Positions 35,022 through 64,000 of a stretch of 64,000 bases of DNA are shown piece after piece; the stretch's first letter is position 1; each line of letters starts with the position of its first letter. The translations under genes and the position numbers were made by a program. The DNA comes from Paraflavitalea soli (GTDB lineage Bacteria; Bacteroidota; Bacteroidia; Chitinophagales; Chitinophagaceae). Under the pieces are notes generated by a model. It was given only the letters and a program-made list of their open reading frames with translations, did no database searches and was not told the origin of the DNA. Where the stretch lies: positions 4,530,546 to 4,594,545 of the forward strand of contig NZ_CP032157.1 of the NCBI RefSeq assembly GCF_003555545.1. The letters run 5' to 3'.

Positions 35022-36884
35022 TTATTCCAGGCTACCTGAAATAGTGATTGACTTCTCGAAAGGATGAAGGTATTTATCGAGCAATACAGCAACAGACCGT
35101 CTGTTGAGTGTATGGCTGCCAGTATCAAGGGGAAGGTTTAGGGAAGCAATGCGCAGGTCATCGATCGCTTGTCTTTCTGTGATCTCCAATCCCGTTGCTT
35201 TGAGTATCTTGATCAGTTCGGTCACAGTGAGCATCTCACCGGAAGCCGCCCAATAAGTTTGTAAGGCGGGATAATATAAACGAAGGCCTTGCACCAGTTC
35301 ATAAGCACTGATGGGTTGTTCCGGATAAAACCAGGTTTGATTGGCCCACATATAAGGCACACCTGTTCCTTTCAGTATACCGGTAGCGCCTATTTTCTGG
35401 ATAACACTAAACTGAGGATCGGCAGCAGGTACATCGATAAACGGCATGATGTATCCATTGGCTTTCAGCAACTGTGCCTGTACATCGCGCACATGTAGTT
35501 GTGCCGGCTGTTTGTATTGCTGTATACAAAGGGCGGCCATCATGCCGGCTGCCTGTCCCAGTTGCAGCACCACGGGCTGCAGGCGTGTAGCGCCATTGAC
35601 CATATTGGTAACGCTGATGCTTTTCTCTGCTACGATGAGCCCCTCTATATCCCGGGGAATGAGGCTGCCCATAGGTACATTGTAAGAGGGTACTTTAATT
35701 TTTACAAAATCAATAGCAGGGGCGGCAGGGTTTTTCAGGTGATGGTGATCAATGGTATAATCGCCTACGGCAATACCTGTACGGTAAAGTGCTTCTTTGC
35801 TGTCGTAAGGACGGGCAATATGGTTGACGGTAAATGTGACGAGTCCTTTCAGGCGCCGTGACTCCCGGTGATAAGGGATCATGGGCAGCTTATCCTTTGT
35901 AGGAAACTCATCATCGGCCAGGCCCAGGTTTTTATAACCCAGGGATGTTTGCAGGTAATACACGAAGTGCAGGGTGTGCAGTTTAGCCTGTTTTAATAAC
36001 TCTTCGCGCTGGGCAGGTGTTTTCTCCACCAGGTTGAGGTAGATATCGTTGCCGCACTTGGGCCAGTTGATCATGTACTTATTACCTGGCAGGCGGCCAT
36101 ACTGCATCATGCGGTAACAATTGTTTTGCGGACTATCGAAAGAAGCGGGATCACTTACATCGCAGGAGCAGCCAAACTCGCTTGCATTGTATCCTTCGGG
36201 CTTAGGAATGGTTTTATCAGCTCCTTTACCATAATCTTTCAGTACGGCTACATAGGTAAGGTCCTGTATAATATCATTGGCTTTTTCGGGAGCCAGTTCT
36301 TCACCGGTATCATGACGGCTATCCATTCCTACGGAATAACGGGCGCCGGCTGCGGCCATTACATCTCCCTGTTCCGTAGCATCAATTAAGATAGGAGCTT
36401 GTACGGTGAGTTGTTTCTTTCCCTGGCTGATGGTTACGATCCATTGGCCCTGTTCACGTTTCACCGTAAGCCACCGTGCTGCAAACCATATTTGTAATTT
36501 CTTTTCGGCGGCTGCCATTTGCTGCAACAGCTTGTTGCCTACATGGGGTTCGAATAAAGTATTGCTTACCCAGCCGGTGGCTACGGAATCGGGACCGCCA
36601 TAATGTTTATAGAGCAGTTGTCTGAATTCGCCCCAAAGGCCGGCAGGCATGCGGTGATTGCCGTCGATAGCAGATACACCGGCGGAAGTGAGCATACCGC
36701 CCAGCCAGTTTGTTTCTTCGATGATCAATGTGTTGACGCCCATCCTGGCAGCCTGTATGCCTGCTGTGGTGCCACTGGCTCCCCCACCAATGATCAACAC
36801 CTCTGTGTTAAAGGTCTGTTGCGCCTGCAACTGTACACTACAGGCCAGTAAGACAAACAGTACGTAATTGATCTTACCTCTCAT
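35022..36884 (-). CDS. Secreted FAD-dependent oxidoreductase with C-terminal repeat region
   Basis: I set the start at 36884 (MRGKINYVLFVLLACSVQLQAQ), giving 620 residues with a signal peptide; longer starts spoil it. The FAD motif is EVLIIGGGASGTTAGIQAARMG, followed by NWLGGMLTSAGVSAIDGNHR and IDATEQGDVMAAAGARYSVG, typical of the FAD_oxidored family. The C-terminal 130 residues (GATGILKGTGVPYMWANQTW, SAYELVQGL, NRRSVAVLLDKYLHPF) resemble SLH-like helical repeats. Members are often encoded in Bacteroidota glycan loci, but their substrate is unknown. It lies second in the operon, between the AGE epimerase and susC. Confidence 0.85.
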   Translation of the reverse strand: MRGKINYVLFVLLACSVQLQAQQTFNTEVLIIGGGASGTTAGIQAARMGVNTLIIEETNWLGGMLTSAGVSAIDGNHRMPAGLWGEFRQLLYKHYGGPDSVATGWVSNTLFEPHVGNKLLQQMAAAEKKLQIWFAARWLTVKREQGQWIVTISQGKKQLTVQAPILIDATEQGDVMAAAGARYSVGMDSRHDTGEELAPEKANDIIQDLTYVAVLKDYGKGADKTIPKPEGYNASEFGCSCDVSDPASFDSPQNNCYRMMQYGRLPGNKYMINWPKCGNDIYLNLVEKTPAQREELLKQAKLHTLHFVYYLQTSLGYKNLGLADDEFPTKDKLPMIPYHRESRRLKGLVTFTVNHIARPYDSKEALYRTGIAVGDYTIDHHHLKNPAAPAIDFVKIKVPSYNVPMGSLIPRDIEGLIVAEKSISVTNMVNGATRLQPVVLQLGQAAGMMAALCIQQYKQPAQLHVRDVQAQLLKANGYIMPFIDVPAADPQFSVIQKIGATGILKGTGVPYMWANQTWFYPEQPISAYELVQGLRLYYPALQTYWAASGEMLTVTELIKILKATGLEITERQAIDDLRIASLNLPLDTGSHTLNRRSVAVLLDKYLHPFEKSITISGSLE

Positions 36885-37010
36885 TTTCGTATGATTTTTC
36901 GTTGTTGCCATGCAGCTATCGTCAGCGTGGCAATAGAGAATTAGCAATCGTTAATAATGTGTACGTCCCGACCTTTGAACCTTTTTTCAACTCACCTGAC
37001 TACCGGCCTG

Positions 37011-38264
37011 TTAGCCTGGCAGTTTATCTGCATCTGCATTTGCTTCTACGGCTTCCCATGTTTTCCAAACCTGGTACAGGGAACGGGGAATATGAAAACA
37101 TCCTTTCCATTTTCCACCTTTCAGATCCAGCAACACTTCTCCTCTCCTGTTGAGGTAACCAAACCATTCGCCATACTGCTCATCGCGGAAGTGCTGCCAG
37201 GTATACTGATGTACTTTCTTAAACCATTTCAGGCAGCGTTCATCGCCTGTTAATTCAAATCCTTTGGCCAGGGCTACGAGGGCTTCTACATGCACCCACC
37301 ATAGTTTCTGGTCCCATTCCAATTGCTGCGGGGGATTGCCCAGTACATCTTTGAAATAATAAATACCACCAAATTCCTTATCCCATCCATACTCCAGGGT
37401 GTGCAGCATGATATCGCAGGCTTTTTGTATGAGGGTTTTATCTTTCATGCGCCTGCCGAGGTCCATGATGAACCACATGGCTTCTATGGTATGTCCAGGA
37501 TTTATTAACCTGCCTTCAAAGCTGTTGGAGAATGAACCATCGGGGTGAACACTTTCCAGGATCAATCCATACTGAGGCTGGTAAAACACTTCCATCACTT
37601 CATGAATGACGGTAGGTATGAATTCATTTACCCGGCCTGCTCCCAACAAGTGTTCCAGTTCAAGGGATAGGTTGCAGAGGATCATGGGCAGGCTAAAGCC
37701 TTTCAGCAGCCTTGTGCCCGGATACGCTTTATTATAGATTCCTTTCCAGTTGTCTTTCCTGCGGAGGATGTTCTCAAAAGTATCAACGGCTATTTGTTTA
37801 TAGCGGTCATTGGGACTGGCTTTGTCGAGGGAAGCGAATCCCATGGCGGCAAAGCAGTCGCTGAAAATATTATAAGGTTGTGTGAGTGGCTTTCCTTCTG
37901 CATTGAGGGAGAAATACCAGTTGCCGGCCGTAGCATCACGCCCATACTTTTCCATGAAAGCGGCGCCGTGCAGGGCCATATCGAGCCATTCCTGCTTTTG
38001 GGCTACATTATTATACATATAGCTAAAGCACCACACCTGCCTGCCTTGCAGCCACATGAACTTATCGGTATCATACACGCTGCCATCCCGCCGTAAACAG
38101 GTAAAAAAACCGCCATTTTTCTCATCTCTGCTGTGTTTTAGCCAGAAAGGCAACACATTATCTACCAATTCATCGCGATACAGGGCTGCATAGGAACTAT
38201 AAAGCAGCCCATTCTCAGCAGGTAACTCTTCTGTCAGGCTTTCATTTCTAACATCCGACGCCAT
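37011..38264 (-). CDS. AGE-family epimerase (N-acylglucosamine 2-epimerase-like)
   Basis: A 417-residue cytoplasmic protein with the (alpha/alpha)6 AGE layout: FWLKHSRDEKNGGFFTCL, DKFMWLQGRQVWCFSYMY, YNIFSDCFAAMG, INPGHTIEAMWFIMDLGRR with a likely catalytic histidine, and KLWWVHVEALVAL. The K-x-x-WLQGRQVW pattern fits renin-binding-protein-type GlcNAc/ManNAc 2-epimerases well, but mannose-type or cellobiose 2-epimerases share the fold and cannot be excluded. Bacteroides fragilis uses a NanE epimerase of related type to turn ManNAc into GlcNAc before ROK-kinase phosphorylation. It is the first gene of the 15-gene operon and divergent from the ROK regulator gene. Confidence 0.88.
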   Translation of the reverse strand: MASDVRNESLTEELPAENGLLYSSYAALYRDELVDNVLPFWLKHSRDEKNGGFFTCLRRDGSVYDTDKFMWLQGRQVWCFSYMYNNVAQKQEWLDMALHGAAFMEKYGRDATAGNWYFSLNAEGKPLTQPYNIFSDCFAAMGFASLDKASPNDRYKQIAVDTFENILRRKDNWKGIYNKAYPGTRLLKGFSLPMILCNLSLELEHLLGAGRVNEFIPTVIHEVMEVFYQPQYGLILESVHPDGSFSNSFEGRLINPGHTIEAMWFIMDLGRRMKDKTLIQKACDIMLHTLEYGWDKEFGGIYYFKDVLGNPPQQLEWDQKLWWVHVEALVALAKGFELTGDERCLKWFKKVHQYTWQHFRDEQYGEWFGYLNRRGEVLLDLKGGKWKGCFHIPRSLYQVWKTWEAVEANADADKLPG

Positions 38265-38301
38265 AAATCCTTTGTATTATTAATTTGTTTTACTTTCGCA
38301 G

Positions 38302-38331
38302 GTAAATTTAATAATTAATTTATTAAACAAA
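38302..38331 (-). promoter_or_regulatory. Candidate promoter of the glycan operon with embedded operator
   Basis: On the minus strand a TTTG (38328-38331) is followed after 17 bp by TAAATTTA (38303-38310), close to the Bacteroidota -33 TTTG / -7 TANNTTTG promoter. The 17-bp spacer together with part of the -7 is a perfect inverted repeat (38307-38327) with arms TTTAATAA and TTATTAAA around 5 bp. A repressor bound there would cover the promoter. The ROK protein encoded next door is the natural candidate. Confidence 0.6.
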
Positions 38332-38411
38332 CACAATTAATAAATATTTTTATTAGAATAGTTCATTTATCACATACTTATTATTTAAACCCTATTCGCT
38401 TATCTTAGTTA

Positions 38412-39674
38412 ATGAAAAAACTTTATCCCGATCAGGCTATGGTAATCAAACAAAGCATATTTGAAATATTCTCTGAGGAAAACACCTCAGGCGTGGCTTA
38501 TAAGAACAAGTCGTTTAAGAGAGCTATTATTAACCACCTGGATCAAACGGGTAATACAACTATTACCGACCTGGCGCAGGAGCTAAACATCAGTGTACCT
38601 AAGATCACCAGTCTGATCAATGAGCTGATCACCGATGGACTGGTGCAGGATGATGGCAAGGAAGATTCGAAAGGGGGTGGCCGCAAGGCCAACCTGTATG
38701 GGCTGGTAGCCGATTCAGCCTTCTTTCTGGGGGTAGATGTAAAACACTACTATATTAATATTGGCCTGCTGGATTTCAAGAAGAACCTGGTAAAGCAGGA
38801 AATGCATGTGCCTTATTTATTGGTCAATACCAAGGAGGCATTTGATCAGCTGGTGAAGATCATCCAAACCTTTATTGCCAATCTGCCGGAAGAGCACCGC
38901 AATATCCTGGCGCTTTGCCTGAACCTGTCGGGCCGTATCAACAGTGAGAATGGCTATAGCTACAGCTTCTTCCATTTTCACGAAGAACCACTCAGCGCTA
39001 CGATTGAGAAGATCACGGGCATCCGTACTTTCCTGGAAAACGATTCGAGGGCGATGGCCTATGGAGAGTTTCACAATGGGCTGGTGCGGGAGGAGAAGAA
39101 TGTATTGTTTGTCAATATGGACTACGGCATTGGCTTGGGTATTATGATCGACGGGCAGATCTACCGGGGCAAATCGGGCTTTGGCGGAGAGTTTGGTCAT
39201 ATCCCTTTATTTGCCAATGAGATCATTTGTCATTGTGGGAAGAAAGGATGTCTGGAGACGGAAGCTTCCGGACAGGCACTGATCCGCCTGTTCAGGGAAA
39301 AGATAGAACAGGGCTCTTCTTCGGCATTAATGCAGAAAAACAAATTGCCGGAAAAACTGCAGCTGACAGACATTATACAGGCTGCTAAAAATGAAGATGT
39401 GCTGTGTATTGAACTGATCGCTGAGATCGGCGAAAAGATCGGGCGGGGTATATCGGTGCTCATCAATATCTTTAATCCCGAGCTGGTGATACTGGGCGGC
39501 ATACTGGCCGAAACCGGTGATTATATACGGCTACCCATCCGCAGCGCCCTCAATAAATACTCCCTGAGCCTGGTTAATAATGACACGCAACTGCATATGT
39601 CTAAGTTGCAGGAAAAGGCCGGCGTTATTGGCGGATGCCTTATTGCGAGGGACAAGCTGCTGTCGGTGAAATAG
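38412..39674 (+). CDS. ROK family transcriptional regulator (NagC/XylR-like)
   Basis: The 420-residue protein has an N-terminal winged HTH (KRAIINHLDQTGNTTITDLAQELNISVPKITSLINELITDGLV, about 35-80) and a ROK sugar-kinase-like domain with FVNMDYGIGLGIMIDG, GEFGHIPL and the zinc motif CHCGKKGCLE. DNA-binding ROK proteins repress sugar genes and release DNA on binding their sugar or sugar phosphate. It is divergent from the AGE epimerase gene across 147 bp that carry a perfect palindrome. A kinase activity cannot be ruled out: D/G-rich phosphate-binding sequences remain, though the N-terminal ATP-binding D-x-G-x-T motif is replaced by GVDVKHYYINIG. Confidence 0.93.
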   Translation: MKKLYPDQAMVIKQSIFEIFSEENTSGVAYKNKSFKRAIINHLDQTGNTTITDLAQELNISVPKITSLINELITDGLVQDDGKEDSKGGGRKANLYGLVADSAFFLGVDVKHYYINIGLLDFKKNLVKQEMHVPYLLVNTKEAFDQLVKIIQTFIANLPEEHRNILALCLNLSGRINSENGYSYSFFHFHEEPLSATIEKITGIRTFLENDSRAMAYGEFHNGLVREEKNVLFVNMDYGIGLGIMIDGQIYRGKSGFGGEFGHIPLFANEIICHCGKKGCLETEASGQALIRLFREKIEQGSSSALMQKNKLPEKLQLTDIIQAAKNEDVLCIELIAEIGEKIGRGISVLINIFNPELVILGGILAETGDYIRLPIRSALNKYSLSLVNNDTQLHMSKLQEKAGVIGGCLIARDKLLSVK

Positions 39675-47871: not shown

Positions 47872-49878
47872 TTACTTTAAAGTTTTACTTACTGCTGTGA
47901 ATCCGCCAGGCTTTACTAATGATACTTTTACACCTTCCTTTTCGGTAGTCGCTGAAAGTGGTATCACCACCTCCTGCCGTTCGCCGGGTTTTAAGGTTTT
48001 CAGCTTTACCAGGGCATCACCATATTGTAACTGGTAATTGCGCAGGGTATAAGCGGGAAAGTTGGCGCGTGTGGTAACAGCCACGGTTATTCTGCCTGCT
48101 TCGCGCTTTACGACTTCCAATATGGCGGGTGCAAATTCTTCCTGCAGGTAAGTATAACTCTCGCGCAATTCACGGGCTGGTGTTACCAGGCCCCAGGCCC
48201 GGTAACCATCGGCATCGGTGCCGGGAAAACGGCTTTGGTAATCATTCAAGGTCCATACAGAAGCGCCCACTAAATAATCACATTGCCTGAAGGCTTCCAT
48301 GGCACTTTTGAAGTAGGCAACACGCGCCGCTTCATTGCCGGCATTAAAACGGGTACCAAACTCACTGATGTAAATGGGCTTGTTGGGATATATTGCATGT
48401 ACCTTTTGCAGGAGCTTTAAATGATTGCCGTAGATATTGGCGCAAATGAAATCCACATACTGTGATGCTTCGTCTTCGGGCTTCTGAACATAATCGCGGA
48501 ACACGGTGTAGCTGGCAAAGGTGATGAGACGGGTTGTATCAATGGTCTTCACAAATGTGCTCATGTCGCGGACCCAGGCCTGGCCTTCTTTGGTTTGCGC
48601 CTGAAATTCATTGCCCAGGCTATACGCAATGATGGAGGGATGATTCCAGTCGCGCTCCATCATTTCTTTCATCTGTGCCTGGAATTTGGCGCGCATCAGG
48701 GGATCGGCCATTTGCCCTGGAGTCATTTGCCAGTTGCCGGCCTCGGCAATGATCAACAGTCCATTTTTATCGGCCCAATTCAACAGGCTTTCAGAAACGG
48801 GATAATGACTAATACGGGAAAACTCCATGCTACCTTGCCTGATGAGGGACAGGTCTTTCACCAATATGCTATCCGGGTCGATGGAACCATAGCCGGGATA
48901 ATCCAATGGCCGGTTACAACCTCCCATGCGAATGGGCTCACCATTCAATAACAGCTGGGTACCCTTCACCTGTATGCTGCGAATACCGAAGGATTTGTTC
49001 ATTGTATCCCTGCCTGCGATTACTTCTGCCCTGTACAGGTGGGGCTCATCGGGATACCAGCGCTTAACAGCCGCTGCCGGCAGTACTCCCTCCAGCACTA
49101 AGGGCGTACTGCTGCTGGCGGGCACAGCCGTAACTACGGGTTTAAATTTAATGTCGATCTTCTGACCACCATAATAAATATTGGCAGTCAGCAAAGTTTG
49201 TGCAGGCTGTGCAGTAAGGTTATTGACAAATGCCCTGATCCTGATGCGGGCATCTCCTTTTGACTGTTGGGGTTCGGCAATGACCTGGGCCTTTTGTATG
49301 AATACCTCCGGACGTACGATCAGATGCACGGGTCTTGTAATACCACCATAATTCATCCAGGCATATAGCTGTGAATGATCGGTCCGTGAAAAAGTATCAG
49401 CCGTTTTGGCGCCGGGAATGGTGGTGGTATCCCACTCGTTGTTGACAGAGATTGCCAGGATATTCTTAGCCTGCAGGAGGTCTGTTACATCCAGTTCAAA
49501 AGGGGTATAACCACCTTCATGGGAGCCAGCTTTTTTGCCATTCAACCATATTGTTGTTTTATAGAATACTGCTTCAAATTGCAGGAAGGCCCGGTGGCCC
49601 TGCGGCACTGCAGTTGCCTGGAAGTTCTTAAAGTACCAGGCGGCTCCTGTATAATAGAAGTAACGTTTGTCAACTGAAAAACTATGCGGTACCTGTACCT
49701 TATCATAACCATTGATAACAAAATCCGTAGCATACCAACGGTTGACCTCTCCTACTTTCACAGGGTCGAGTGTGAAGTTCCAGGCGCCATTGAGTGAAAT
49801 GCGTGATTGGCTTTGTGCTGCTGTCAGCAAAGGCAATATTAATAAGAGGAGGCTATGTACTAATTTCATGTTCCGCAT
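47872..49878 (-). CDS. Glycoside hydrolase family 2 (beta-glucuronidase/galactosidase type)
   Basis: A 668-residue precursor with a signal peptide ending near LLTAAQ (an alternative start three codons in). The N-terminal sugar-binding domain (about 25-195) holds VPHSFSVD and LNGKKAGSHEGGYTPFELDVT. An immunoglobulin-like domain (about 195-305) precedes the TIM barrel (about 305-590). The acid/base is E424 in SLGNEFQ, and the nucleophile E506 in ISEFG. MNYGGITRPV resembles the beta-glucuronidase branch, but galactosidase or mannosidase activity is possible. It should act on oligosaccharides in the periplasm together with the GH97 enzyme and the unknown paralogues. Confidence 0.93.
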   Translation of the reverse strand: MRNMKLVHSLLLLILPLLTAAQSQSRISLNGAWNFTLDPVKVGEVNRWYATDFVINGYDKVQVPHSFSVDKRYFYYTGAAWYFKNFQATAVPQGHRAFLQFEAVFYKTTIWLNGKKAGSHEGGYTPFELDVTDLLQAKNILAISVNNEWDTTTIPGAKTADTFSRTDHSQLYAWMNYGGITRPVHLIVRPEVFIQKAQVIAEPQQSKGDARIRIRAFVNNLTAQPAQTLLTANIYYGGQKIDIKFKPVVTAVPASSSTPLVLEGVLPAAAVKRWYPDEPHLYRAEVIAGRDTMNKSFGIRSIQVKGTQLLLNGEPIRMGGCNRPLDYPGYGSIDPDSILVKDLSLIRQGSMEFSRISHYPVSESLLNWADKNGLLIIAEAGNWQMTPGQMADPLMRAKFQAQMKEMMERDWNHPSIIAYSLGNEFQAQTKEGQAWVRDMSTFVKTIDTTRLITFASYTVFRDYVQKPEDEASQYVDFICANIYGNHLKLLQKVHAIYPNKPIYISEFGTRFNAGNEAARVAYFKSAMEAFRQCDYLVGASVWTLNDYQSRFPGTDADGYRAWGLVTPARELRESYTYLQEEFAPAILEVVKREAGRITVAVTTRANFPAYTLRNYQLQYGDALVKLKTLKPGERQEVVIPLSATTEKEGVKVSLVKPGGFTAVSKTLK

Positions 49879-49907: not shown

Positions 49908-52757
49908 TTACTTTTTATCGCCCAGGACCACTGATTCACTTTTCACTTCTCTACCATCGACAGCTGTGAGTAACAAATAAAACGGGATAGGCTGTCCGCT
50001 ATCAACCGGTACCGTAAATTCAAAGGGATAGGCATTGTCATCCATCCGTACTTCTTTACCGGCAGCGGTGGTGCAGATCAGGGAAGCCTGTTTGTATTTG
50101 TTGTCATCATCTTCCAGGTACACATACAAGCGACGGCTGTATTGGCCCAGGTTAAACAGCATAGCATGTGCATTGCCAGTCTTCAACTTTACATAATCAT
50201 GGCTTGTGGCAATACGGCTTGTATCCAATATCTTTTGCTGGAAAGATGATCGTATGGCTGTTCTTTCCAGCGCAACAGCTGTCAAGCCGTTGGCAGGCAC
50301 GGTGATGGTAAAGCTGCTGTCTTTAAGTCCCTTCAACAGTTTACCTGTGAACGTAGTAACAGTGCTCTTGCTGTTGAACCTTACCCAGGATGGATTGATG
50401 GTTACGGTAGCTGTGACTGGTTTACCGGATTGGTTGGTGAATGCCAGTAACAGCTTATCGTCCTTTCGGGCAGCTATATAATTCAATTCGGTATTGTCCA
50501 TGTGCAGCAGGCGGGCCGGCATCCACAATTGCACCTTGCTTTCGCTATAGAAGTGTCCTTTTTGTGCGCCATAGAGGTTGTTTTGCAGGTAGGCATATCC
50601 TTCCATGTATTCGTACGGGAAACTGATCTTTCCATTGCTGCGCACAAAGGCATCAGTGACCAGGTAATCGAGCAACATGGATGCCATGGGCAAAATATGG
50701 TTGTAATGAAAAGAATTTACGCTCTGGTCTTTGTGCTCATGTAACGGGAAATCGACTTTTTCATAGGCGGTCGTTCTTTCTGTATTAATATGATAACCTG
50801 GGAAACTCCTATAGCGCCCTATGATGGATGCCTTTGCTACATTCATGAGGAAAGTATCGCGGGTATAATAACCAATCCGCAACATCCAGGGTGCATAGTT
50901 GGCCATAAAGATGCCCCGGTGACCGGTGGAGGTACCGGATGATTCGGGGGTAAGGCCCATTTCTGACAAGCGCCAGGCGGGAGCCTGCTCTTCGGGATAA
51001 TACATTTGTTGGTGGCCTTTGGACTTGAGGTACCAGTACATGGGGGCTTTGCCTCCTTTGTTCACGGTGATCAAACTATCGGGTATCACAGGGCACATCC
51101 AGGTGAACATGGTATATTGACGGGCTCCCTGACGGGCTGCTTCGAGGTAGCGTTTGTCCTGAGTAAGCTCGTACAATTGCAGGAACTCTATCCATCGCCC
51201 GGTAAACGTAGGCCAGAAAAAATAGCTGCCCTGCATGGGATCGTTGAAACCGGTTTGCGGTTGTGTGATCCTTTCGGCCAGGTATTCATTGGCTTTGGTG
51301 ACAGCGGCCTGCAAATAGTTTTTATCGCCGGTAGCCTGGTAGAGGTACATGGCATTGATCCAGTTATTACCTTTCTCTTTGGTATCGAGGTTGCGTATAC
51401 GTGCAAAGTTGAATTCCTTCTGCGCCATCAGCAGGTAGAAATCATTTTTCTTACTGAATATATTGTACAAGGCTACCAGTTCGGATAAGGGCGCTATCGG
51501 TCCTTTTAACTTCCGGGAAGGACTTTGGATCTTTTGGGTACTATCGAGACTGAAGAGGAATTTTTCCCGCGACAGCATAAATTCCATGAGGGGATAAGCC
51601 CGCTTTTCAAACATTAGGGAATCATCTCTTACCAGGGCCAGTTCTAAGGGGTTGAGGCTGGATACATTCTTAACAGCACCTGGTACATCGGTAGAATAAG
51701 CACAACCTTTCAGGCTGTCAATAAACCAGGCATACTGCGACAGGGAATAATCCACCATATTGTCCAGGGCGGCATTGAGGGAGGCAATATCATTGTGGCG
51801 GTAATCTTTAAAACCGAATATCTGCTGGGCAATATTCTGGTAAGTGTCATTAACAGACTGCGGCCCGGCAACCAGGTAGAAAGAAAATTCAAATGTATCA
51901 CCGGGTTTCATTTGAGATAAATAGCCGCCGGGCATGGGTGCGTAAACCTGTGGCTGCAGCTGTTTCTGTTGGTTCAGCAGGGATACACCAAAGCGACTGT
52001 TGGGCAGCATAGGCAATGGCTGAAAGGGAATCTCCTTTGGTGCTGCCAATACACCAATGGTATTGACGCCATCATTGACCATGGTAGCGGGCAGGGTGGC
52101 CATGAAGGCGGGGGTAAGGTAAGCCGCATCGGGGATGCGCTTTTCCTGCCATATCAATGGCTGCCAGAGGGCAGCGGCTTTTTCCGGCGCCAGGGAAGGG
52201 GCGCCGGTATAGCCCACACTATAAAAACCTGGCCGTAAAGGCCGCAAAGAATACTGCAAAAGTGGGTACGGCTTTGCAGTTGTCAAAAGATAGACGGATA
52301 GTTTGAACGAGGGGGATTCAGGAATATTGAAAAAAACGGTGTCTCCTTTTCTATAGGCGCCGGTGGCTTTCACTTCGGTCCTTTCACCGGCGTTGAAAAT
52401 GTTGGCGGTTCTCCATTCAGCTTTAGTTCTAAGGATGCGGTCATCAAACCCATCACCTGCTACGGATGCATTGACCTTCTTTTGTACAAAATCGGCCTTG
52501 CTGCTGTCCTGCACTTTCCAGGTAAGTACATTGTATTCTACTTTTTTAATACCGGCGGGCTTCAGGGCCATGCCGGGATCAAGGGCATTGTACAATACCA
52601 CAAAAGAAGGGGAGAAAATATAACTGCGTTGTCCGCTCTTAATGATCACATCGGTTTGTCCGGCCGGAATGCTCACCTGTACCTGGCTGTGTGCGATACC
52701 CACCAACAGGCAACACTGCATCATGCTCAACATATACCAGGCTTTTCTATTCGGCAT
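49908..52757 (-). CDS. Secreted putative (alpha/alpha)-barrel glycan enzyme of unknown family (paralogue C)
   Basis: The start at 52757 (MPNRKAWYMLSMMQCCLLVGIAHSQ) gives 949 residues with a signal peptide; it lies 4 bp after the GH97 stop. A beta-sandwich N-terminal part (about 25-340) is followed by a helical part (about 340-750) of repeated helix pairs (YLLMAQKEFNFARI, WINAMYLYQATGDKNYLQAAVTKANEYLA, YLEAARQGARQYTMF), as in six- or seven-hairpin toroids. The stretch NYAPWMLRIGYYTRDTFLMN...LLDYLVTDAFVRSNGKISFPYEYMEGYAYLQN is shared with the products of 56266 and 59957. A C-terminal beta domain is similar to those of glycosidases. I do not recognise a named family; a glycosidase or lyase is likely. 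Confidence 0.75.
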   Translation of the reverse strand: MPNRKAWYMLSMMQCCLLVGIAHSQVQVSIPAGQTDVIIKSGQRSYIFSPSFVVLYNALDPGMALKPAGIKKVEYNVLTWKVQDSSKADFVQKKVNASVAGDGFDDRILRTKAEWRTANIFNAGERTEVKATGAYRKGDTVFFNIPESPSFKLSVYLLTTAKPYPLLQYSLRPLRPGFYSVGYTGAPSLAPEKAAALWQPLIWQEKRIPDAAYLTPAFMATLPATMVNDGVNTIGVLAAPKEIPFQPLPMLPNSRFGVSLLNQQKQLQPQVYAPMPGGYLSQMKPGDTFEFSFYLVAGPQSVNDTYQNIAQQIFGFKDYRHNDIASLNAALDNMVDYSLSQYAWFIDSLKGCAYSTDVPGAVKNVSSLNPLELALVRDDSLMFEKRAYPLMEFMLSREKFLFSLDSTQKIQSPSRKLKGPIAPLSELVALYNIFSKKNDFYLLMAQKEFNFARIRNLDTKEKGNNWINAMYLYQATGDKNYLQAAVTKANEYLAERITQPQTGFNDPMQGSYFFWPTFTGRWIEFLQLYELTQDKRYLEAARQGARQYTMFTWMCPVIPDSLITVNKGGKAPMYWYLKSKGHQQMYYPEEQAPAWRLSEMGLTPESSGTSTGHRGIFMANYAPWMLRIGYYTRDTFLMNVAKASIIGRYRSFPGYHINTERTTAYEKVDFPLHEHKDQSVNSFHYNHILPMASMLLDYLVTDAFVRSNGKISFPYEYMEGYAYLQNNLYGAQKGHFYSESKVQLWMPARLLHMDNTELNYIAARKDDKLLLAFTNQSGKPVTATVTINPSWVRFNSKSTVTTFTGKLLKGLKDSSFTITVPANGLTAVALERTAIRSSFQQKILDTSRIATSHDYVKLKTGNAHAMLFNLGQYSRRLYVYLEDDDNKYKQASLICTTAAGKEVRMDDNAYPFEFTVPVDSGQPIPFYLLLTAVDGREVKSESVVLGDKK

Positions 52758-52761
52758 AGAA

Positions 52762-54627
52762 TTATTCACTTTTGATTTGGATAACCAGGCCGCCGGTAGC
52801 AGGCAGGTTAAACTGATTGCTGTATTTATTGTGTACGTTTTGCTCCGTGGCAGCAAATCCTGCATCCTTCGGAGCATCTGATACGATATATGCTTTGTAC
52901 TTTTTTTGTTTGGCCAGGAAGGAGGTCTGCAATGTAAACGCAGTTGCACTGTCTGTTCCATTGATCACTGCTATATACCAATCCTTTCCTTTACGCCGTG
53001 CAAATGCAGCGAGCTGGCCTATTTTACTGCCCGGTAATACGATGGTCTCGTCCCAGGTAACGGGTAATGTTTTTAATAAAGGAAGAATGGGTTGATACAC
53101 CGGATCGTTAAGAAGGGTGATGGGATTTTCTGCGATACACTGAAAGGGTGAATTGAACAGGTAAAGCAGGGCGAGCTGATGGGTGTAGGTAGTATTGGCT
53201 TTGTTGCTAAAGAAGCCCGGTGTGTAATCTCCATGGCCACAAAGAAAGCGGGTGAAGGGCAAAGCGGCATTGTGCCAGGCAGGGATTGGTTCTTTCATGA
53301 TGTTGAGCTCCATGCCACGGATGCCTTCACGCGTCATTTCATTGGGCCATGTCTTGCTTTCACCGGTGGGCGCCTGGCAACCATGAAAGTTGACCATCAG
53401 TTTTCTTTTGGCAGTGGCTTCCAGGAATCCCAGCTCAAAATCAATGAGGTCTTTGGCCTCACTGTTCATAAAGTCTGTTTTAACACCTGCGGCCCCGGCC
53501 ATCTGTACACTGTCGAGGAAGTTATTGCGCTGTATGGTATCTCTTATATCTTTTGAATGCTTCCACACCCAAACCTTCACCTTCCTTGTAGCAGCATAAG
53601 CGCAAAGCTCCTGCAGCTGCTGCCACTTGTTGGGCCATTTGGTTTCCCAACCTTCATCGATCATGGTATATTGGAACTGTAATGCGGCAGCGGCATCAAT
53701 GAATTTTCTTTCCTCTGCCGGCTCCATGTAGTGTTCATTGCGGGTGATCCAGCTCCATACGGATTTGCCGGGTTGTATATAGCTTGTTTCAGCAAAGAGG
53801 CTGGTATTGGGTGCGGGATTAAGGTCCTCAATCACCTGGTTATTGACGAGCTCCTGCAGGTTATTGGCATATAGCACAACGCGCCAAGGAGATTGTAATT
53901 TACCGTTGACAGCAAATCCTGCCGGACCTTCTGTAAAATTTACCTGCAGGGTATTATTGCCAATGGCCTTCAGGCGCATACCGCTGTAATCAGCGAGCGC
54001 CGCTTCTGTAACCACGATGTATTTTTTGGAAGGCAATTGGATCACCAATGGCTTTCCCTGTATGGCACCCTGGGAAGAAACAAGCGGCAATTTCTCTATG
54101 GCTGTTTGTTGCCACAGACCAGCATAGGACTTGAGTTTCCAATCGCTGTTCCTTTCAAAATACCATACGGATGAGCTGGCGGGAATCTTAAAGGAAGTTA
54201 ATTCCTCCTTCACCAGTTGGTGACCAGTTCCTGCCGGTATATACCGGAAAGCGCAGCCATTGTCGAACAACCTGAACTCGATGGTATCCTGTACTGCTTT
54301 GCTCCGAATGGTAATTATATATACTGTACAATGATTGGTAGCGAACTGACTATTGATTCGGGAGGGGAGCGTTTCGGTAATGGTATACTTACGAGCAATG
54401 GTTATATTATCAACGCCTGTTCCCACCTGGCGGTGATCTGTTTGTAATCCCAGGTAAGCAGGTTCGAGCAATATATGCTTACCAGCAGCCAGCTGGTACA
54501 TGAGCTTGCCCTGCTGTATATACAGGGATGCCTGTACTTTTTTATGAGGGCTTTGCAACAGCAGGTTATCTGCCGCACTGAGCAAGTAAGAAGAGAGCAA
54601 ATAACATATGGTAAGCACGAGTCGCAT
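52762..54627 (-). CDS. Glycoside hydrolase family 97
   Basis: The start at 54627 (MRLVLTICYLLSSYLLSAADN) gives 621 residues with a signal peptide; the longer frame reads through repeats. The N-terminal beta-supersandwich (about 22-275) includes ELTSFKIPASSSVWY; the TIM barrel carries YTMIDEGWETKW and GVKTDF with D385 where retaining GH97 alpha-galactosidases have their nucleophile. NFHGCQAPTGESKTWPNEMTREGIRGME, with E440 a candidate acid/base, follows. The inverting SusB-type glucosidases use glutamates instead, so a retaining alpha-galactosidase-like activity is the better guess. Calcium-dependent, periplasmic. Confidence 0.95.
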   Translation of the reverse strand: MRLVLTICYLLSSYLLSAADNLLLQSPHKKVQASLYIQQGKLMYQLAAGKHILLEPAYLGLQTDHRQVGTGVDNITIARKYTITETLPSRINSQFATNHCTVYIITIRSKAVQDTIEFRLFDNGCAFRYIPAGTGHQLVKEELTSFKIPASSSVWYFERNSDWKLKSYAGLWQQTAIEKLPLVSSQGAIQGKPLVIQLPSKKYIVVTEAALADYSGMRLKAIGNNTLQVNFTEGPAGFAVNGKLQSPWRVVLYANNLQELVNNQVIEDLNPAPNTSLFAETSYIQPGKSVWSWITRNEHYMEPAEERKFIDAAAALQFQYTMIDEGWETKWPNKWQQLQELCAYAATRKVKVWVWKHSKDIRDTIQRNNFLDSVQMAGAAGVKTDFMNSEAKDLIDFELGFLEATAKRKLMVNFHGCQAPTGESKTWPNEMTREGIRGMELNIMKEPIPAWHNAALPFTRFLCGHGDYTPGFFSNKANTTYTHQLALLYLFNSPFQCIAENPITLLNDPVYQPILPLLKTLPVTWDETIVLPGSKIGQLAAFARRKGKDWYIAVINGTDSATAFTLQTSFLAKQKKYKAYIVSDAPKDAGFAATEQNVHNKYSNQFNLPATGGLVIQIKSE

Positions 54628-54687
54628 TGGGTTCAAATTTAATGCCTTGGGATGCCTGCGGGCAAGGCTTTTCCGCTTAAAAACCAA

Positions 54688-54719
54688 TGGGAATGTTCCC
54701 AATTTGCGGGAATGTTCCC
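54688..54719 (-). promoter_or_regulatory. Pair of TGGGAAcaTTCCCA palindromes upstream of the GH97 gene
   Basis: A complete 14-bp palindrome lies at 54688-54701 and a 12-bp version (GGGAATGTTCCC) at 54708-54719, 19 bp apart, 60-90 bp upstream of the GH97 start and inside the operon. The form, with a central dinucleotide and GGGAA half-sites, is like operators of the LacI family. No LacI-type gene is in the window. Confidence 0.5.
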
Positions 54720-54740
54720 AAGAAATACAAGCCCCTTTAG

Positions 54741-54774
54741 AGTCCGAAAGTCCGGAAGTCGGAAAGTCCGGAAG
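54741..54774. repeat. 8-bp tandem array GTCCGGAA
   Basis: Four units of the form GTCSGRAA, starting at 54742, repeat with period 8, in the gap between the SGNH esterase and GH97 genes. It is a further short-period array in this intergenic family, but with an 8-bp period. Confidence 0.7.
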
Positions 54775-54832
54775 CAAAACCTTCATCAGGCTGCCAAATG
54801 ACAAGTGAGGCTTCGACAAGCCCCTGACATTT

Positions 54833-56251
54833 TTATTTTGGCAGTGCCTCGCCTCGTATGAGGATCTTACCGAGATACAGCACGGTCCTGTCGTATTTGG
54901 CAGGATTGGCGGTGATATCAGCCAGTTGGCTTTCGCCCAGTATCTTCCGCTTATCAGACTTTACGGGCGATAGCTTTATGGTAACGGTATGTTCACCGGG
55001 TACAACTTTGATACATTCAAACTGGCCACGGTAGCGGTTATTACAAAAAGGCCCAAACCTGTTTACTAACTCAGAGCCGTCGGTATCTGTTACAGTGGAT
55101 ATGCGTGTACCAGCCAGCACCGGTGACAGTTTAACCGGTTTACCATCTACTTCTACAGCGAGTTGCCCTACTTCGGGGCCGCCGATATCGAAAAAGCCGA
55201 ACATATTGCCTTTGAACCGGAATGTAAAAGAGGCGCCAGGTTGTTCGGTTTTCATGATATAAGGAAACCAGGGAGCAAACTGTTTCAGGAATGTACTGTC
55301 GTTGGGATTGATCCGGTTCCATCCACTGCTGAATGCAGCCAGCTCTGCAGGTGCATACATATGAGCATTCTCCCAGTTATCGGCAAGGAGTGGCGCCGGT
55401 AATACATGTTTGCGTGAAAGGGCCTTCTTTTGCAGGGTAAGCATGCTTCTGGCAATGGCGCCCACATACAGATCGCCGCCCTCAGGAAGGGGGTGTGCGC
55501 CATCATTTGAAAAAATGATCTTGCCGGGAATGGTTTTACTATCGGAGCGCCAGACCAGCTTTCCTTCCTGTACCATCAAAGCTGGCTGCACACCCAGGTG
55601 AATAGATGGGATACCGTAGTAATCGGCCAGTTCTTCCAGTCCGCGTACATTATCCGGCACCTTTCCTGCCGTATAGATGGCATGTTGTTCATGGTGGATG
55701 GTGTACAGCAGGCAAATGTCAATAGTGGGATCAAATTCCCATATCTGCCTGATGATACCTTCCATGCCTTCGCGGTAAGCGCCGTTGACGGCAAATTCAA
55801 CGAATATGATATCAGGGTGGTATTGCAATAGCTGTTCGTGCAGGCGACAGGCTCCCAAATCGGTACCGGTTCCGGATATACCGGCATTGATGGCTTTCAT
55901 GGGAACATTAGGGTACAGGGATTGAATGTACCTGGCAGTTCGTGTACGATAGCCATATACAGCCTGTGTAATGCTGCCTCCTATAAAGCCCATGGTAATG
56001 GATTTGCCTGCAGCAGCTTTGTGAAAGAAGTTGGGCAGGCCATTACGCACAGTACATTCCCTGCTATTGTCAAATTCAAGCGGTTTTATAACGGGTATAT
56101 CGGCTGCGGCGGGATCAAAAAACAGCGGTGAAGCTCCTCCCTGTGAGGCAGCCCTTAGCCGTTCTTCATATGTTCCCTCTGCTTTGTTGCCCTGAGCAAA
56201 AGCGCTAGCAGCAACAAGCAGTGCCAGGGATAAAAACAAATAATTACGCAT
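54833..56251 (-). CDS. Two-domain secreted SGNH hydrolase
   Basis: A 472-residue precursor with the signal peptide MRNYLFLSLALLVAASAFAQ. The SGNH domain (about 75-275) has catalytic S93 in MGFIGGSITQ, NAGISGTGTDLG as block II, VEFAVNGA with N156 as block III, and SNDGAHPLPEGG with D250 and H253. The C-terminal part (about 280-472) is a beta-sandwich (FTFRFKGNMFGFFDIGGPEVGQLAVEVDGKP; CIKVVPGEHTVTIKL), possibly a carbohydrate-binding or jelly-roll domain like that of acetyl xylan esterases. It differs from the short SGNH proteins of the first cluster. It sits between the CBM-bearing paralogue and GH97. Likely deacylation of a glycan. Confidence 0.9.
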   Translation of the reverse strand: MRNYLFLSLALLVAASAFAQGNKAEGTYEERLRAASQGGASPLFFDPAAADIPVIKPLEFDNSRECTVRNGLPNFFHKAAAGKSITMGFIGGSITQAVYGYRTRTARYIQSLYPNVPMKAINAGISGTGTDLGACRLHEQLLQYHPDIIFVEFAVNGAYREGMEGIIRQIWEFDPTIDICLLYTIHHEQHAIYTAGKVPDNVRGLEELADYYGIPSIHLGVQPALMVQEGKLVWRSDSKTIPGKIIFSNDGAHPLPEGGDLYVGAIARSMLTLQKKALSRKHVLPAPLLADNWENAHMYAPAELAAFSSGWNRINPNDSTFLKQFAPWFPYIMKTEQPGASFTFRFKGNMFGFFDIGGPEVGQLAVEVDGKPVKLSPVLAGTRISTVTDTDGSELVNRFGPFCNNRYRGQFECIKVVPGEHTVTIKLSPVKSDKRKILGESQLADITANPAKYDRTVLYLGKILIRGEALPK

Positions 56252-59956: not shown

Positions 59957-62900
59957 CTATTGGTAACTAATCTCAATTACTTGTATCCCATAAGCAGGTA
60001 TGGACAGGGGCCAGTTGTTGGTGTTTGTCAGCATTGTTCTTTTACCACTGGCATTGATTGACCAGGCAGTTTTGGGTTGTATGATTGCATTGTTCAGCAC
60101 TTTATTGTAATCTACCTTAATGGTCGTCTGCAGCACCTGATCATCATCGTTCAATACAATGAGGAATAACTTTTTATTGGTAGAATCAATCGCTCCGTAA
60201 TAATCCAGGTATGGGCTGGCGGTTTGCAACAGGCCTTCTTTCAATAAGAGTTGAGCCTTGTTGCCATAAATGGTACCTGCTGCAAAACCATAGCTTTGGT
60301 GCGGGCCTACCTTGGGAGTAATAAATCCACGGGGGAAGGTCACTTTGCCAGCAGACCGCAGTTCGGCTTCTGCCAACAGGTAATCGGTGATCCATCCAAT
60401 CTGCCACCAGGCATGGTGGGGATAAGGCCCTGCACCCTTGTTCATGGTATTCCAGTAATAAGAAGCCACGCTGGTGGCAGGGTCTACAAAGGCATCGCGG
60501 CCCAGGGCGGCAGCACGTGCCATGGTAAGGAATAATGAATCGCGGGTAAGGGAGAACATGCGAATAAACATACCGGCATGACTGGCCAACAAGATAGGAC
60601 CGTGTTTAGTGGCAGAACCAATGCTACCGCCATGCTCAAAGCTCAAACCTACCTGGCTGATCTCCCAGTCCTGGCGCAACATACCACCTGCTGTCTTTTG
60701 CGTACGGCCTGGGATAGGATGTGTGTAAACAGCAGTAGTATACAATTTGGCAGTGGTAATAGCGGCCTGCAGGTATTGTTGGTTTTTCGTTATCTCATAC
60801 AGATCAAGTAAGGCCTGAGCGCTCTGACCGGTAGCGAAGTCGGGCGCAAAACGTGTATCGCCACACACACCGGTGAAGCGGCCTCTTTTTACAGCATTGG
60901 AAATATACCATTCGGCTCCTTTGATGGCGCCTTGCAAATACTTCTTATCGCCCAGCAATTTATAAGCAATAACGAGCCCATAGAAAGTAGGACGCAGGTC
61001 TTCCACTTCCGTAAACAATGGCTGGTGTGTAATGTGGTCGTAAGCCACCTGCCATCTGCCATCGCTACCCATCCATGCCAGCAACTTGTCGGCTGCCAGC
61101 TTCAATTCGCGTTTTAAAGCGGTATCGCCGGGATTGAAGAGTAAGATATTGCCAACATCCATCAACACGTAGTAAGTAGTACCGATCGGTTCCACATAGG
61201 GCCCCCACTCTTCGGTAAACTTTTTGCTTTTAGGGAGGTAATACTGTCCGGCTGCTGCTCCATGGAAAAAGCCTGGCCTGTTATCCTGCTGTGTGATCTT
61301 GAAATTGCGTGCATAAGGCAGGCGGGTTTGCTGTAATACAGGGTCGTTGGTGATGCGGGCCAGCATCCACATGGCGCCATAGTCGGCGTTCTTGATGGCA
61401 TCGCCATCACCACCATATACGCCACCCAAATAATCCTGCGCCCCAATGGTAAGGCCCTGGTATTGTTCTTTACGCCATTTAGAAGTACTGTCATCCACCA
61501 CATATCTATGCATGGATAATATACGATTGGTGAGGGATTGTTTTGTTTCTTTTAAGGCGAGAAAATCTTTTAGCCTGTAAATATCATTCACAGCATGTTT
61601 GTATACGGTATACCAATCTGCAGATTGTACAGTGTACCGGAAATTGAAGGTGGTTGATTCGCCTGCTTTCAGGAAAGATCCACGCTGGCCCAATACAGGA
61701 TGCCAGACAGTGGGTGTTAATTGGGCCTGCCTGTTCATTAAGGACAGACCAAGTTGCCAGGTACTTTGTGTGCTGTTCTTATCTTCCCATGGATCACGGC
61801 CCATGCCAGACCCGGGTATCACGGCAAGGGTAAGACCTTGTTTTGTGCTGATGAGGGGCGCCAGGGTGGATGCAGAACGTTCACGACTAACGACAGGCTT
61901 ATCTGGAATACCTTGCCCATAGGCAAAAGCTTTGATGAAATTCGATTCTATGGCATTGCCCTGGAAATGACCGGGTACCATTCCCCAGCTGAGTTCTTTT
62001 TTATCAACAATGGCGAGGGAAGGGGAAGCTATGGAGTAATAACCATCTTTCCTGGCAGTTAATGTGATGGTCACCAGGATATCCTGGTTGTATTGGGAAT
62101 CCATACGCCAGGTGGACCTTACACTCGCTTCCCTGGTTTCCTGCAGGAAGGACAATTCATCATTAGCAGATTGTACTGCTGCCGGATAAAAGCGGGTGGC
62201 CTCGCCCACTGTGTTCATGGCAACGGGTGAGGTGGCTTCTGCCCAAACAGGAATGGTATAGCGATAGTGTGCCTCCGGAAATATTACTTGTTTTCCTGCG
62301 GCATCATATATTGGCTGGGGTATAGAATCAGGCTTTTGCTGTGTAAATAAGATGGTATATTCTCCACTGGCGCCGGTCATAGGGATCCAGGCGGCACCTT
62401 TCTTTACAGACAGTTGTTGCAGTTGCCATCCGCTGGCGCTTTTGTTCCATTGTAATCGTACAGCAGCAGAAGAAAGGGTTGCTTTGTTACCCGTGATCTT
62501 TTGTGCGGTGGCCTTGTTGGTTGGCAACATGCATCCCAAGACTAAGCACAGTAGCAAGGCAGCAGCAGGCAGCTTCACTTTCCTGGCTGCGCTGAAGGGG
62601 ATCAGTGCACATACGAGGATAACAGCAGCAATGCCTGCCACTACCCCTCCGCCTGAAGCGGTGAGCAAACTCAATATGAACAGCAATACGGCTATAAAGG
62701 CCAGGGAGAAGGCGATGACCTGCAGGCCAAATTTATTTTGCTTCTTTATTTCGAATGTCTCTTCTTCGGTAGCTTGTAAGGCATTCTCTTTTCGTTGGAT
62801 CTTGCGTTGTTGATACAATGCATAATCCTCATTGTGTAGTCCTTTGTAGCGCGCGTACAGTTCATACGCTGCCAACATGAGGAAGGGCAAGCCTACGCCT

Positions 62901-64000
62901 ACCAGCATTTCTGTAGCACGGCTGAGTTTATATCCCATGGTGAGTGGCAATATCACCTTGCAAACGATGTTGACAGAAAGGCTGACGAGGGTGATAAAAA
63001 TAGTGGCCTTGCCGGTGAGCCGTTTGGAAAACAATGCCCAGATGGGTGGAGCCAGGAGGGGACCTCCTGTAATGGCGCCAATGCTTAAAGTAAATTCTAC
63101 GATGCCGCCAATATAAGGAACGATCAGGGCGATGCCGATCATACCCAGTCCAAAGAACCAGGAAGAGATGCGGGCCACGCTCATTAATTTTTTATCAGAC
63201 GCTCTGGGATTAACGGAGCCCTTATAAATATCATTGGTAAATACAGCGGATACTACGTTGAGGGCCGTATTGGCGGAAGCGGAAGTGGAGAAATACATAC
63301 CTGTAAGGATAAGGCCCATGAGGCCAGCCGGCAATACGTGCTTACAGATCATGAGGTAGGCATTCTCTGTATCCAGCCCGGATAAGGAGGGGTTGATGGT
63401 CTTGTATACCATGGGCGGCAGCATCCATAAAATGGGACTGATGATGTAGAGACCAGCAAAGAGGTAAGCTACTTTCGATGCAGACTTTGGTGTGTCTACA
63501 CTGGTGTATCGTTGTACAAAAGTCCAGTTGCCGCCAATATAAAAGATATGGTAGAGTGCAAAAGCCAGTATAAACCCCCAGGTATATTCTCCATTGACGA
63601 GTTTGAAAAATCCCTGTGGCGCTTGTTCCAGGAAGTGATTGGCACCACCGGCGGCTTTAAATGCCAATGGCAATATAATGAGGATGGCGGCGGTAAGGAT
63701 CACAAACTGCAGGATATCGGTCACCATTACAGCCCACAGACCGCCAACAGCGGTATAGGCAATCATGAATAAACCAAGTACAATGGTAACAGGTATCAAC
63801 GGAAATCCTAATGAGGAGCCTACCAGCTTAGCTACGGAATACAATACAGAACCCTTGATGAACAAGGATACCAACATAAAGATGTAGATATAACTTTTTT
63901 GCACCCCGGCGCCGAGCCTTTCGCGGATAAACTCAGCGGCAGTCAGATTGCCGGTAGCTTTCCATTTGGGTGCCAGGTAGAGGCCAGTGATGAGGCCACC
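59957..64000 (-). CDS. Sodium:solute symporter fused to extracytoplasmic putative glycan enzyme (paralogue A), 5' partial
   Basis: The frame stays open to the right edge, so the true start is outside; the edge-proximal residues (LAPKWKATGNLTAAEFIRERLGAG) are a typical SSS loop. Counting from the GTG at 63904, SSS helices fill about 1-350, two further helices lie at 393-438, and a stretch at 441-468 (KLPAAALLLCLVLGCMLPTN, then KATAQ) looks like a lipoprotein signal peptide. The remaining 850 residues match paralogues B and C: beta domain, helical toroid with GVYGGDGDAIKNADYGAMW, and PHHAWWQIGWITDYLLAEAELRSAGKVTFPRGF. A GTG codon preceded by AGGAAA lies exactly where a separate secreted protein would start (about 62576). 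No stop separates the parts. Confidence 0.85.
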   Translation of the reverse strand, partial: GGLITGLYLAPKWKATGNLTAAEFIRERLGAGVQKSYIYIFMLVSLFIKGSVLYSVAKLVGSSLGFPLIPVTIVLGLFMIAYTAVGGLWAVMVTDILQFVILTAAILIILPLAFKAAGGANHFLEQAPQGFFKLVNGEYTWGFILAFALYHIFYIGGNWTFVQRYTSVDTPKSASKVAYLFAGLYIISPILWMLPPMVYKTINPSLSGLDTENAYLMICKHVLPAGLMGLILTGMYFSTSASANTALNVVSAVFTNDIYKGSVNPRASDKKLMSVARISSWFFGLGMIGIALIVPYIGGIVEFTLSIGAITGGPLLAPPIWALFSKRLTGKATIFITLVSLSVNIVCKVILPLTMGYKLSRATEMLVGVGLPFLMLAAYELYARYKGLHNEDYALYQQRKIQRKENALQATEEETFEIKKQNKFGLQVIAFSLAFIAVLLFILSLLTASGGGVVAGIAAVILVCALIPFSAARKVKLPAAALLLCLVLGCMLPTNKATAQKITGNKATLSSAAVRLQWNKSASGWQLQQLSVKKGAAWIPMTGASGEYTILFTQQKPDSIPQPIYDAAGKQVIFPEAHYRYTIPVWAEATSPVAMNTVGEATRFYPAAVQSANDELSFLQETREASVRSTWRMDSQYNQDILVTITLTARKDGYYSIASPSLAIVDKKELSWGMVPGHFQGNAIESNFIKAFAYGQGIPDKPVVSRERSASTLAPLISTKQGLTLAVIPGSGMGRDPWEDKNSTQSTWQLGLSLMNRQAQLTPTVWHPVLGQRGSFLKAGESTTFNFRYTVQSADWYTVYKHAVNDIYRLKDFLALKETKQSLTNRILSMHRYVVDDSTSKWRKEQYQGLTIGAQDYLGGVYGGDGDAIKNADYGAMWMLARITNDPVLQQTRLPYARNFKITQQDNRPGFFHGAAAGQYYLPKSKKFTEEWGPYVEPIGTTYYVLMDVGNILLFNPGDTALKRELKLAADKLLAWMGSDGRWQVAYDHITHQPLFTEVEDLRPTFYGLVIAYKLLGDKKYLQGAIKGAEWYISNAVKRGRFTGVCGDTRFAPDFATGQSAQALLDLYEITKNQQYLQAAITTAKLYTTAVYTHPIPGRTQKTAGGMLRQDWEISQVGLSFEHGGSIGSATKHGPILLASHAGMFIRMFSLTRDSLFLTMARAAALGRDAFVDPATSVASYYWNTMNKGAGPYPHHAWWQIGWITDYLLAEAELRSAGKVTFPRGFITPKVGPHQSYGFAAGTIYGNKAQLLLKEGLLQTASPYLDYYGAIDSTNKKLFLIVLNDDDQVLQTTIKVDYNKVLNNAIIQPKTAWSINASGKRTMLTNTNNWPLSIPAYGIQVIEISYQ

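Follow-up and report, generated by a model that had tools for sequence, protein, structure and literature searches.

A symporter-enzyme gene fusion with a retained internal signal peptide in Paraflavitalea soli: a possible natural polyprotein that apparently evolved twice

The fused gene and its neighbourhood

The stretch analysed here (the window) comprises 64,000 nucleotides of the Paraflavitalea soli chromosome (NZ_CP032157.1, positions 4,530,546 to 4,594,545), and its last part holds a gene in which a sodium:solute symporter (SSS) is joined to a predicted exported enzyme through an apparent internal signal peptide (Table 1). A preliminary description of this DNA had read the transporter and an extracytoplasmic domain as one frame, and a single open frame is indeed present, running up to the window end; the whole gene amounts to 1430 codons from its ATG (L009 203-4495) in a one-contig genome of 8.44 Mb.

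The transporter part is assigned to the SSS/SSF family of sodium:solute symporters by its Pfam score and fold. Pfam SSF covers residues 3-331 of the part lying in the window (84.1 bits, gathering score 22.8), and SGLT, vSGLT and SiaT head the Protein Data Bank (PDB) fold matches of a model of the SSS part from a second fusion in Niastella sp. OAS944; the NCBIfam sss model gives the window fragment 137.7 bits, below its cut-off of 184.

An AlphaFold2 model of 59960-62500 (predicted local distance difference test score, pLDDT, 91.9) divides the enzyme domain into a beta-sandwich, a barrel of helices and a beta domain at the C-terminus; the structure alignment drew on 51 of the 80 retained genome_contigs loci plus the window. 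Most of the 50 PDB hits listed by Foldseek are (alpha/alpha)6 carbohydrate-active enzymes, including polysaccharide lyase BACCELL_00875, GH65, phosphorylases and GH127, with GH97 chains also among them (template-modelling score by query length at most 0.30), and the barrel is probably of the (alpha/alpha)6 type. Matches to Pfam GH88 (18.5 bits against a gathering score of 26.6; weak match in 18 of 23 relatives) and GH127 (16.5 against 24.9; 16 of 23) fall below threshold, and comparison with the sequences of solved structures gave a best E of 0.025 and no usable match. The enzyme of Chitinophaga japonensis (L097 9905-14428) is extended at its C-terminus, and the added part matches CelD_N (cellulase Ig-like) weakly, below the cut-off of that family.

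Downstream of the fusion follow, in order, a stand-alone paralog of the enzyme, a GDSL-like esterase, a GH97 glycosidase, a second paralog and a GH2 glycosidase, while SusC-like and SusD-like genes (read by eye), a gene for a DUF5017 protein and, on the opposite strand, a LacI-type regulator lie 5' of it beyond the window; the run looks like a glycan-use gene cluster. The two stand-alone proteins, earlier taken for copies of the same domain, proved to be distant paralogs, and nothing else in the source genome resembles the enzyme closely: the next match to the domain is 29% identical, apart from an 81-residue stretch at 39%. The listed start of the 1017-residue paralog overlaps the GH97 gene (52733-52961), and its signal-peptide start probably lies near 52733. 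Elsewhere in the window (35022-39674), FAD_oxidored, GlcNAc 2-epimerase and ROK genes are grouped in a manner that we take to be reminiscent of an amino-sugar or sialic-acid cluster.

Table 1. Features of the fusion gene and of the adjoining gene run (window coordinates).
Feature	Coordinates	Strand	Remarks
SSS-signal peptide-enzyme fusion gene	59957..64000	-	single open frame; 5' 83 codons beyond window
SSS (sodium:solute symporter) part up to end of last helix	62591..64000	-	Pfam SSF E 1.2e-23
AARKVK, positively charged transporter tail, putative n-region of internal signal peptide	62573..62590	-	contains in-frame GTG 62576-62578
Hydrophobic h-region, 16 residues, with lipobox-like VLGC	62525..62572	-	bounds chosen by eye
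c-region PTNKATA↓Q, candidate signal-peptidase-I site between 62504 and 62503	62501..62524	-	[A/G]↓Q in 4/4 fusions; Q-rule as in available text of PMC5837995; low matrix score
Exported enzyme domain (predicted), 848 residues	59960..62503	-	AlphaFold2, Foldseek; Pfam: no family above cut-off
Distant paralog of enzyme, stand-alone, 1138 aa	56266..59682	-	21% identity over 869 columns, E 3e-21
GDSL-like esterase gene, same gene run	54833..56251	-	Pfam PF13472
GH97 glycosidase gene, same gene run	52762..54819	-	Pfam PF10566, PF14508, PF14509
Second distant paralog, 1017 aa as listed	49908..52961	-	22% identity over 653 columns, E 7e-25
GH2 glycosidase gene, same gene run	47872..49878	-	Pfam PF02836, PF02837, PF00703

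Distribution and history of the fusion

Among five genomes of the genus, the gene is fused in three, namely the source genome (G000), G001 and G003, the latter two fusions being 86% and 85% identical to the first, and is represented by two adjacent genes in G002 and G004. At a threshold of E 1e-60, matches occur in 32 of the 294 family genomes, and the only unbroken full-length frames among the matches listed are these same three; 396 genomes of the order, a set overlapping that of the family, gave 24 matches and no further fusion. A search of genome_contigs found 278 relatives, the best 80 of which were retained, and one of these 80 is an SSS fusion, that of Niastella sp. OAS944 (L064). The ten genomes of its genus divide into one with the fusion, two with a split pair, one with a distant transporter only (45%) and six without a match, and none of the six genomes in the genus of G227 carries a fused gene. 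When SSS frames in 80 phylum genomes were scanned for length, the frames above 800 residues among the matches listed were the Kelch-SSS of the source genome and two in G620, one of 1161 residues (an overlapping upstream frame, judged spurious) and one of 886 (Kelch-SSS by reading). A literature search of titles and abstract openings turned up no paper describing an SSS-signal peptide-enzyme fusion.

Because three of five genus genomes share the fusion and another occurs elsewhere in the tree, the split genes of relatives mark the fusion as real and derived, not as a sequencing error. In many of the relatives, the enzyme gene is directly adjoined by a transporter gene, 5' or 3', which supports a joint task of the two proteins. 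In G019 (L035), the transporter and enzyme genes share a reading frame and are kept apart by one TAA and four codons, an arrangement that may picture the state before fusion.

The fusion apparently evolved twice. A tree built on 28 enzyme domains places the Niastella fusion, with full support, beside a split Longitalea pair as its sister and the three genus fusions in a separate clade, so that two changes are required; a tree of the 104 rows that remained once a skip list and a score cut-off had been applied recovered the same two fusion clades. Constraining the four fusions to unite was rejected (log-likelihood lower by 139, approximately unbiased test p-AU 3.4e-148) in a test on the 28 chosen domains under LG+G4, with two long outgroup branches flagged. 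Two independent gains appear to be the simplest history; a single gain followed by two splits would require three changes and is compatible with the constraint test.

Junction, topology and fate of the internal signal segment

In split relatives, the order is SSS tail, stop, start, signal peptide and enzyme: the transporter ends in RAARKVKL or a like motif, its stop falls at or up to about 25 residues past the motif, and a scripted search found [AGS]↓Q after a hydrophobic stretch (↓, candidate cut) in 87 of 100 split enzyme rows, the other 13 lacking it. The fused junctions read AARKVK-LPAAALLLCLVLGCML-PTNKATA↓QK in G000, AARKVK-LQPTTAVLCILIGCGL-FTNKSTA↓QT in G001, AARKVK-VPVAALVSLIMMGLLL-PQAEATA↓QT in G003 and SKKFKIKTVSK-VIATVLLAAVM-PYGMQG↓QQ in Niastella. 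Comparison with the split genes shows that the transporter stop, the intervening bases and the enzyme's own start were lost at fusion, and the enzyme's signal peptide survives at both junction types. The signal peptide, lipobox-like motif, in-frame GTG and AGGAAA that had been described at the P. soli junction are all present: AGGAAA (62584-62579) and GTG (62578-62576) are followed by VLGC and by a segment ending in ATA↓Q.

A mean hydropathy profile of 42 relatives (an SSS alignment of 42 of 64 rows) reveals 15 hydrophobic segments, two of them touching. In the Niastella fusion, the SSS part as modelled by AlphaFold2 has helices that form 15 membrane units when grouped by eye with short helices set aside. 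Since SSS N-termini lie outside according to the available text of PMC7918813, 15 spans should end inside the cell, in agreement with the 11 lysine or arginine residues of the loop that precedes segment 14 and with a cluster of them after segment 15. The transporter is thus predicted to end in the cytoplasm, and the enzyme would need an extra hydrophobic segment to get out. The earlier placement of the enzyme outside the cytoplasm, beside its own transporter, is in keeping with this 15-helix topology and the retained segment, which together predict a periplasmic position.

Fusions to GH97 offer a natural comparison, albeit in small numbers. The Niastella sp. OAS944 (G591) cluster that contains the SSS fusion also contains a GH97 gene joined to the counterpart of the 1017-residue paralog (L167 4216-8787). 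Its product is 68% identical to the window GH97 over 618 columns; the part that follows is 74% identical to the paralog, beginning at paralog residue 116, and has lost the paralog's signal peptide. In Parapedobacter tibetensis (L110 8150-12535), GH97 has as its fusion partner the counterpart of the SSS-fused enzyme, and no hydrophobic segment separates the two. The inner signal peptide is therefore missing in both fusions behind GH97, where it is dispensable because GH97 is itself exported, and kept in the SSS fusions of both clades.

The retained segment also changes in a distinctive manner. When the three genus members are compared, the transporter shows a nonsynonymous divergence (dN) of 0.05-0.06 and the h-region one of 0.58-0.84; for the mature enzyme, dN is 0.14-0.26 over the initial 60 residues and 0.09-0.10 beyond them. 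Synonymous divergence (dS) is near saturation, at or above 1.3, in the transporter and most of the enzyme. Across the 16 columns of the h-region, at least 18 amino-acid changes have occurred and none to K, R, D, E or H, an outcome with a probability under neutral change of 0.011 counting stops and about 0.03 without them, in a simple model with h-region bounds chosen by eye on these same sequences. The segment thus seems to be held apolar without conservation of its letters, as signal peptides are. Additionally, [A/G]↓Q is retained in all four fusions, and n-, h- and c-regions and a Q-rule site can be recognised in the sequence; in Bacteroidetes, most signal-peptidase-I substrates expose a Gln that is converted to pyroglutamate, according to the available text of PMC5837995.

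These observations suggest the following course of events. An SSS symporter gene and a neighbouring secreted-enzyme gene of a putative glycan-use cluster became one gene. The old signal peptide of the enzyme would now have the positively charged end of the transporter as its n-region; that signal peptide would enter the Sec channel as a 16th segment and bring the enzyme into the periplasm, where signal peptidase I would probably cut at [A/G]↓Q. Each translation event would then yield one intact transporter molecule and one soluble enzyme molecule in the periplasm, and the enzyme could be produced only together with its transporter. We lean slightly towards such a natural polyprotein, exported by its internal signal peptide and likely cut by signal peptidase I. 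The fuller account, in which this arrangement evolved twice and releases sugar transporter and periplasmic enzyme 1:1, and in which fusions lose the inner signal peptide behind partners ending outside and keep it behind partners ending inside, stands for us in even balance.

Several points weigh against cleavage. A cleavage matrix was built from 87 split relatives (scores 4.3-14.3, median 10.9) out of a set of 100 split enzyme rows, from which duplicate-genome and GH97-fusion identifiers had been skipped beforehand, which still includes some same-genome pairs from two collections, and in which, for at least three rows (L092, L095, L099), the site chosen by the script lies past the obvious one. 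On this matrix, the genus junction sites score 4.7, 5.3 and 6.9, in the low tail, the Niastella site, scoring at most 4.4, lies outside the six best windows of its protein, and other windows within the fused proteins outscore the junction sites; the matrix thus does not favour strong cleavage. Furthermore, the four retained [A/G]↓Q sites represent at best two independent cases, the genus members sharing one origin; the by-eye bounds of the h-region bias towards zero charges; the start of the mature enzyme is also fast-changing; pyroglutamate formation is, in the available text of PMC5837995, untested for inner-membrane proteins; and a 16-residue apolar segment, if left uncut, could itself cross the membrane. 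Cleavage by signal peptidase I at the junction nevertheless seems likely, by a modest lean.

The foremost rival, which we consider possible but rather unlikely, is that the signal peptide stays uncut as a permanent 16th helix, with the enzyme bound to the transporter and feeding it directly. Such a tether would accord with the low site scores and the length of the apolar stretch in the three genus members, and it would supply a functional reason for the fusion; yet the segment evolves like a signal peptide and unlike a transporter helix, the Niastella model shows it as a helix of 11 residues, mostly below pLDDT 50, and the Gln at +1, of use only after cleavage, is retained in all four fusions. 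Lipidation of the Cys, with a cut by signal peptidase II and an enzyme left anchored in the membrane, is improbable: the VLGC of G000 and the better LIGC of G001 would suit it, but the G003 and Niastella fusions have no such Cys, which is thus conserved in only two of four, and several split relatives whose exit is a plain A↓Q likewise have a Cys within the hydrophobic stretch. On comparison of the four fusions, this reading was rejected as a general explanation.

The proposal that a separate secreted enzyme starts at the internal GTG, beside the long form, fares still worse and is very improbable. The codon is in frame behind a purine run, recurs in G001, and in G003 has an in-frame alternative two codons on, which however leaves no charged n-region. 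Against this, AGGAAA abuts the GTG with zero spacing, too close for an ordinary ribosome-binding site; the codon encodes the Val of the transporter's own AARKVK tail, as in split relatives; it is GTA in G003 and TTT in Niastella, where no ATG, GTG or TTG occurs from the last transporter helix to the middle of the hydrophobic segment. The same four-way comparison led to its rejection as a general explanation. Finally, an assembly or sequencing error or a decayed gene, which the preliminary description would have read from split genes in relatives, has next to no probability: two genes are indeed the state of most of the relatives compared, but this reading is refuted by the fusions shared within the genus and recurring elsewhere, by the low dN of the enzyme beside its high dS, and by the 47-69% identity that fused and split enzymes still maintain.

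Meaning and comparison with known systems

The locus offers a natural experiment in how gene fusions respect membrane topology: within one cluster of Niastella sp. OAS944, one fusion has kept and one has dropped the inner signal peptide, in accordance with where, inside or outside the membrane, the first partner should terminate. A cut product would join the few bacterial polyproteins known to be processed by signal peptidase, as an example from nutrient uptake; an uncut one would have an enzyme attached to its transporter.

Fusions of Kelch (NanM, N-acetylneuraminate epimerase) to SSS, one of which is present in the source genome (L010 114-2687; G000:C1 246613-249186), likewise join a carbohydrate enzyme with a signal peptide to an SSS transporter. 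Their enzyme is N-terminal and already outside, so that an ordinary N-terminal signal peptide is enough, whereas the enzyme of the window fusion is C-terminal and would be predicted to remain inside without an extra segment. The FbcH cytochrome b/c1 precursor of Bradyrhizobium is likewise a single chain in which an internal signal peptide, cleaved by signal peptidase, links a polytopic membrane protein to an exported one; it belongs, however, to a respiratory complex of Proteobacteria and its cleavage has been shown, whereas that of the window fusion is inferred. CbrA-type SSS sensor kinases, as presented in the available text of PMC7918813, likewise carry a domain behind the SSS transporter, but there the added domain is a signalling one and here it is a predicted exported enzyme. 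Lastly, the Q-rule substrates of signal peptidase I in Bacteroidota, as described in the available text of PMC5837995, share with the junction a small residue followed by Gln; their signal is N-terminal, whereas that of the window fusion is internal and follows 15 predicted helices.

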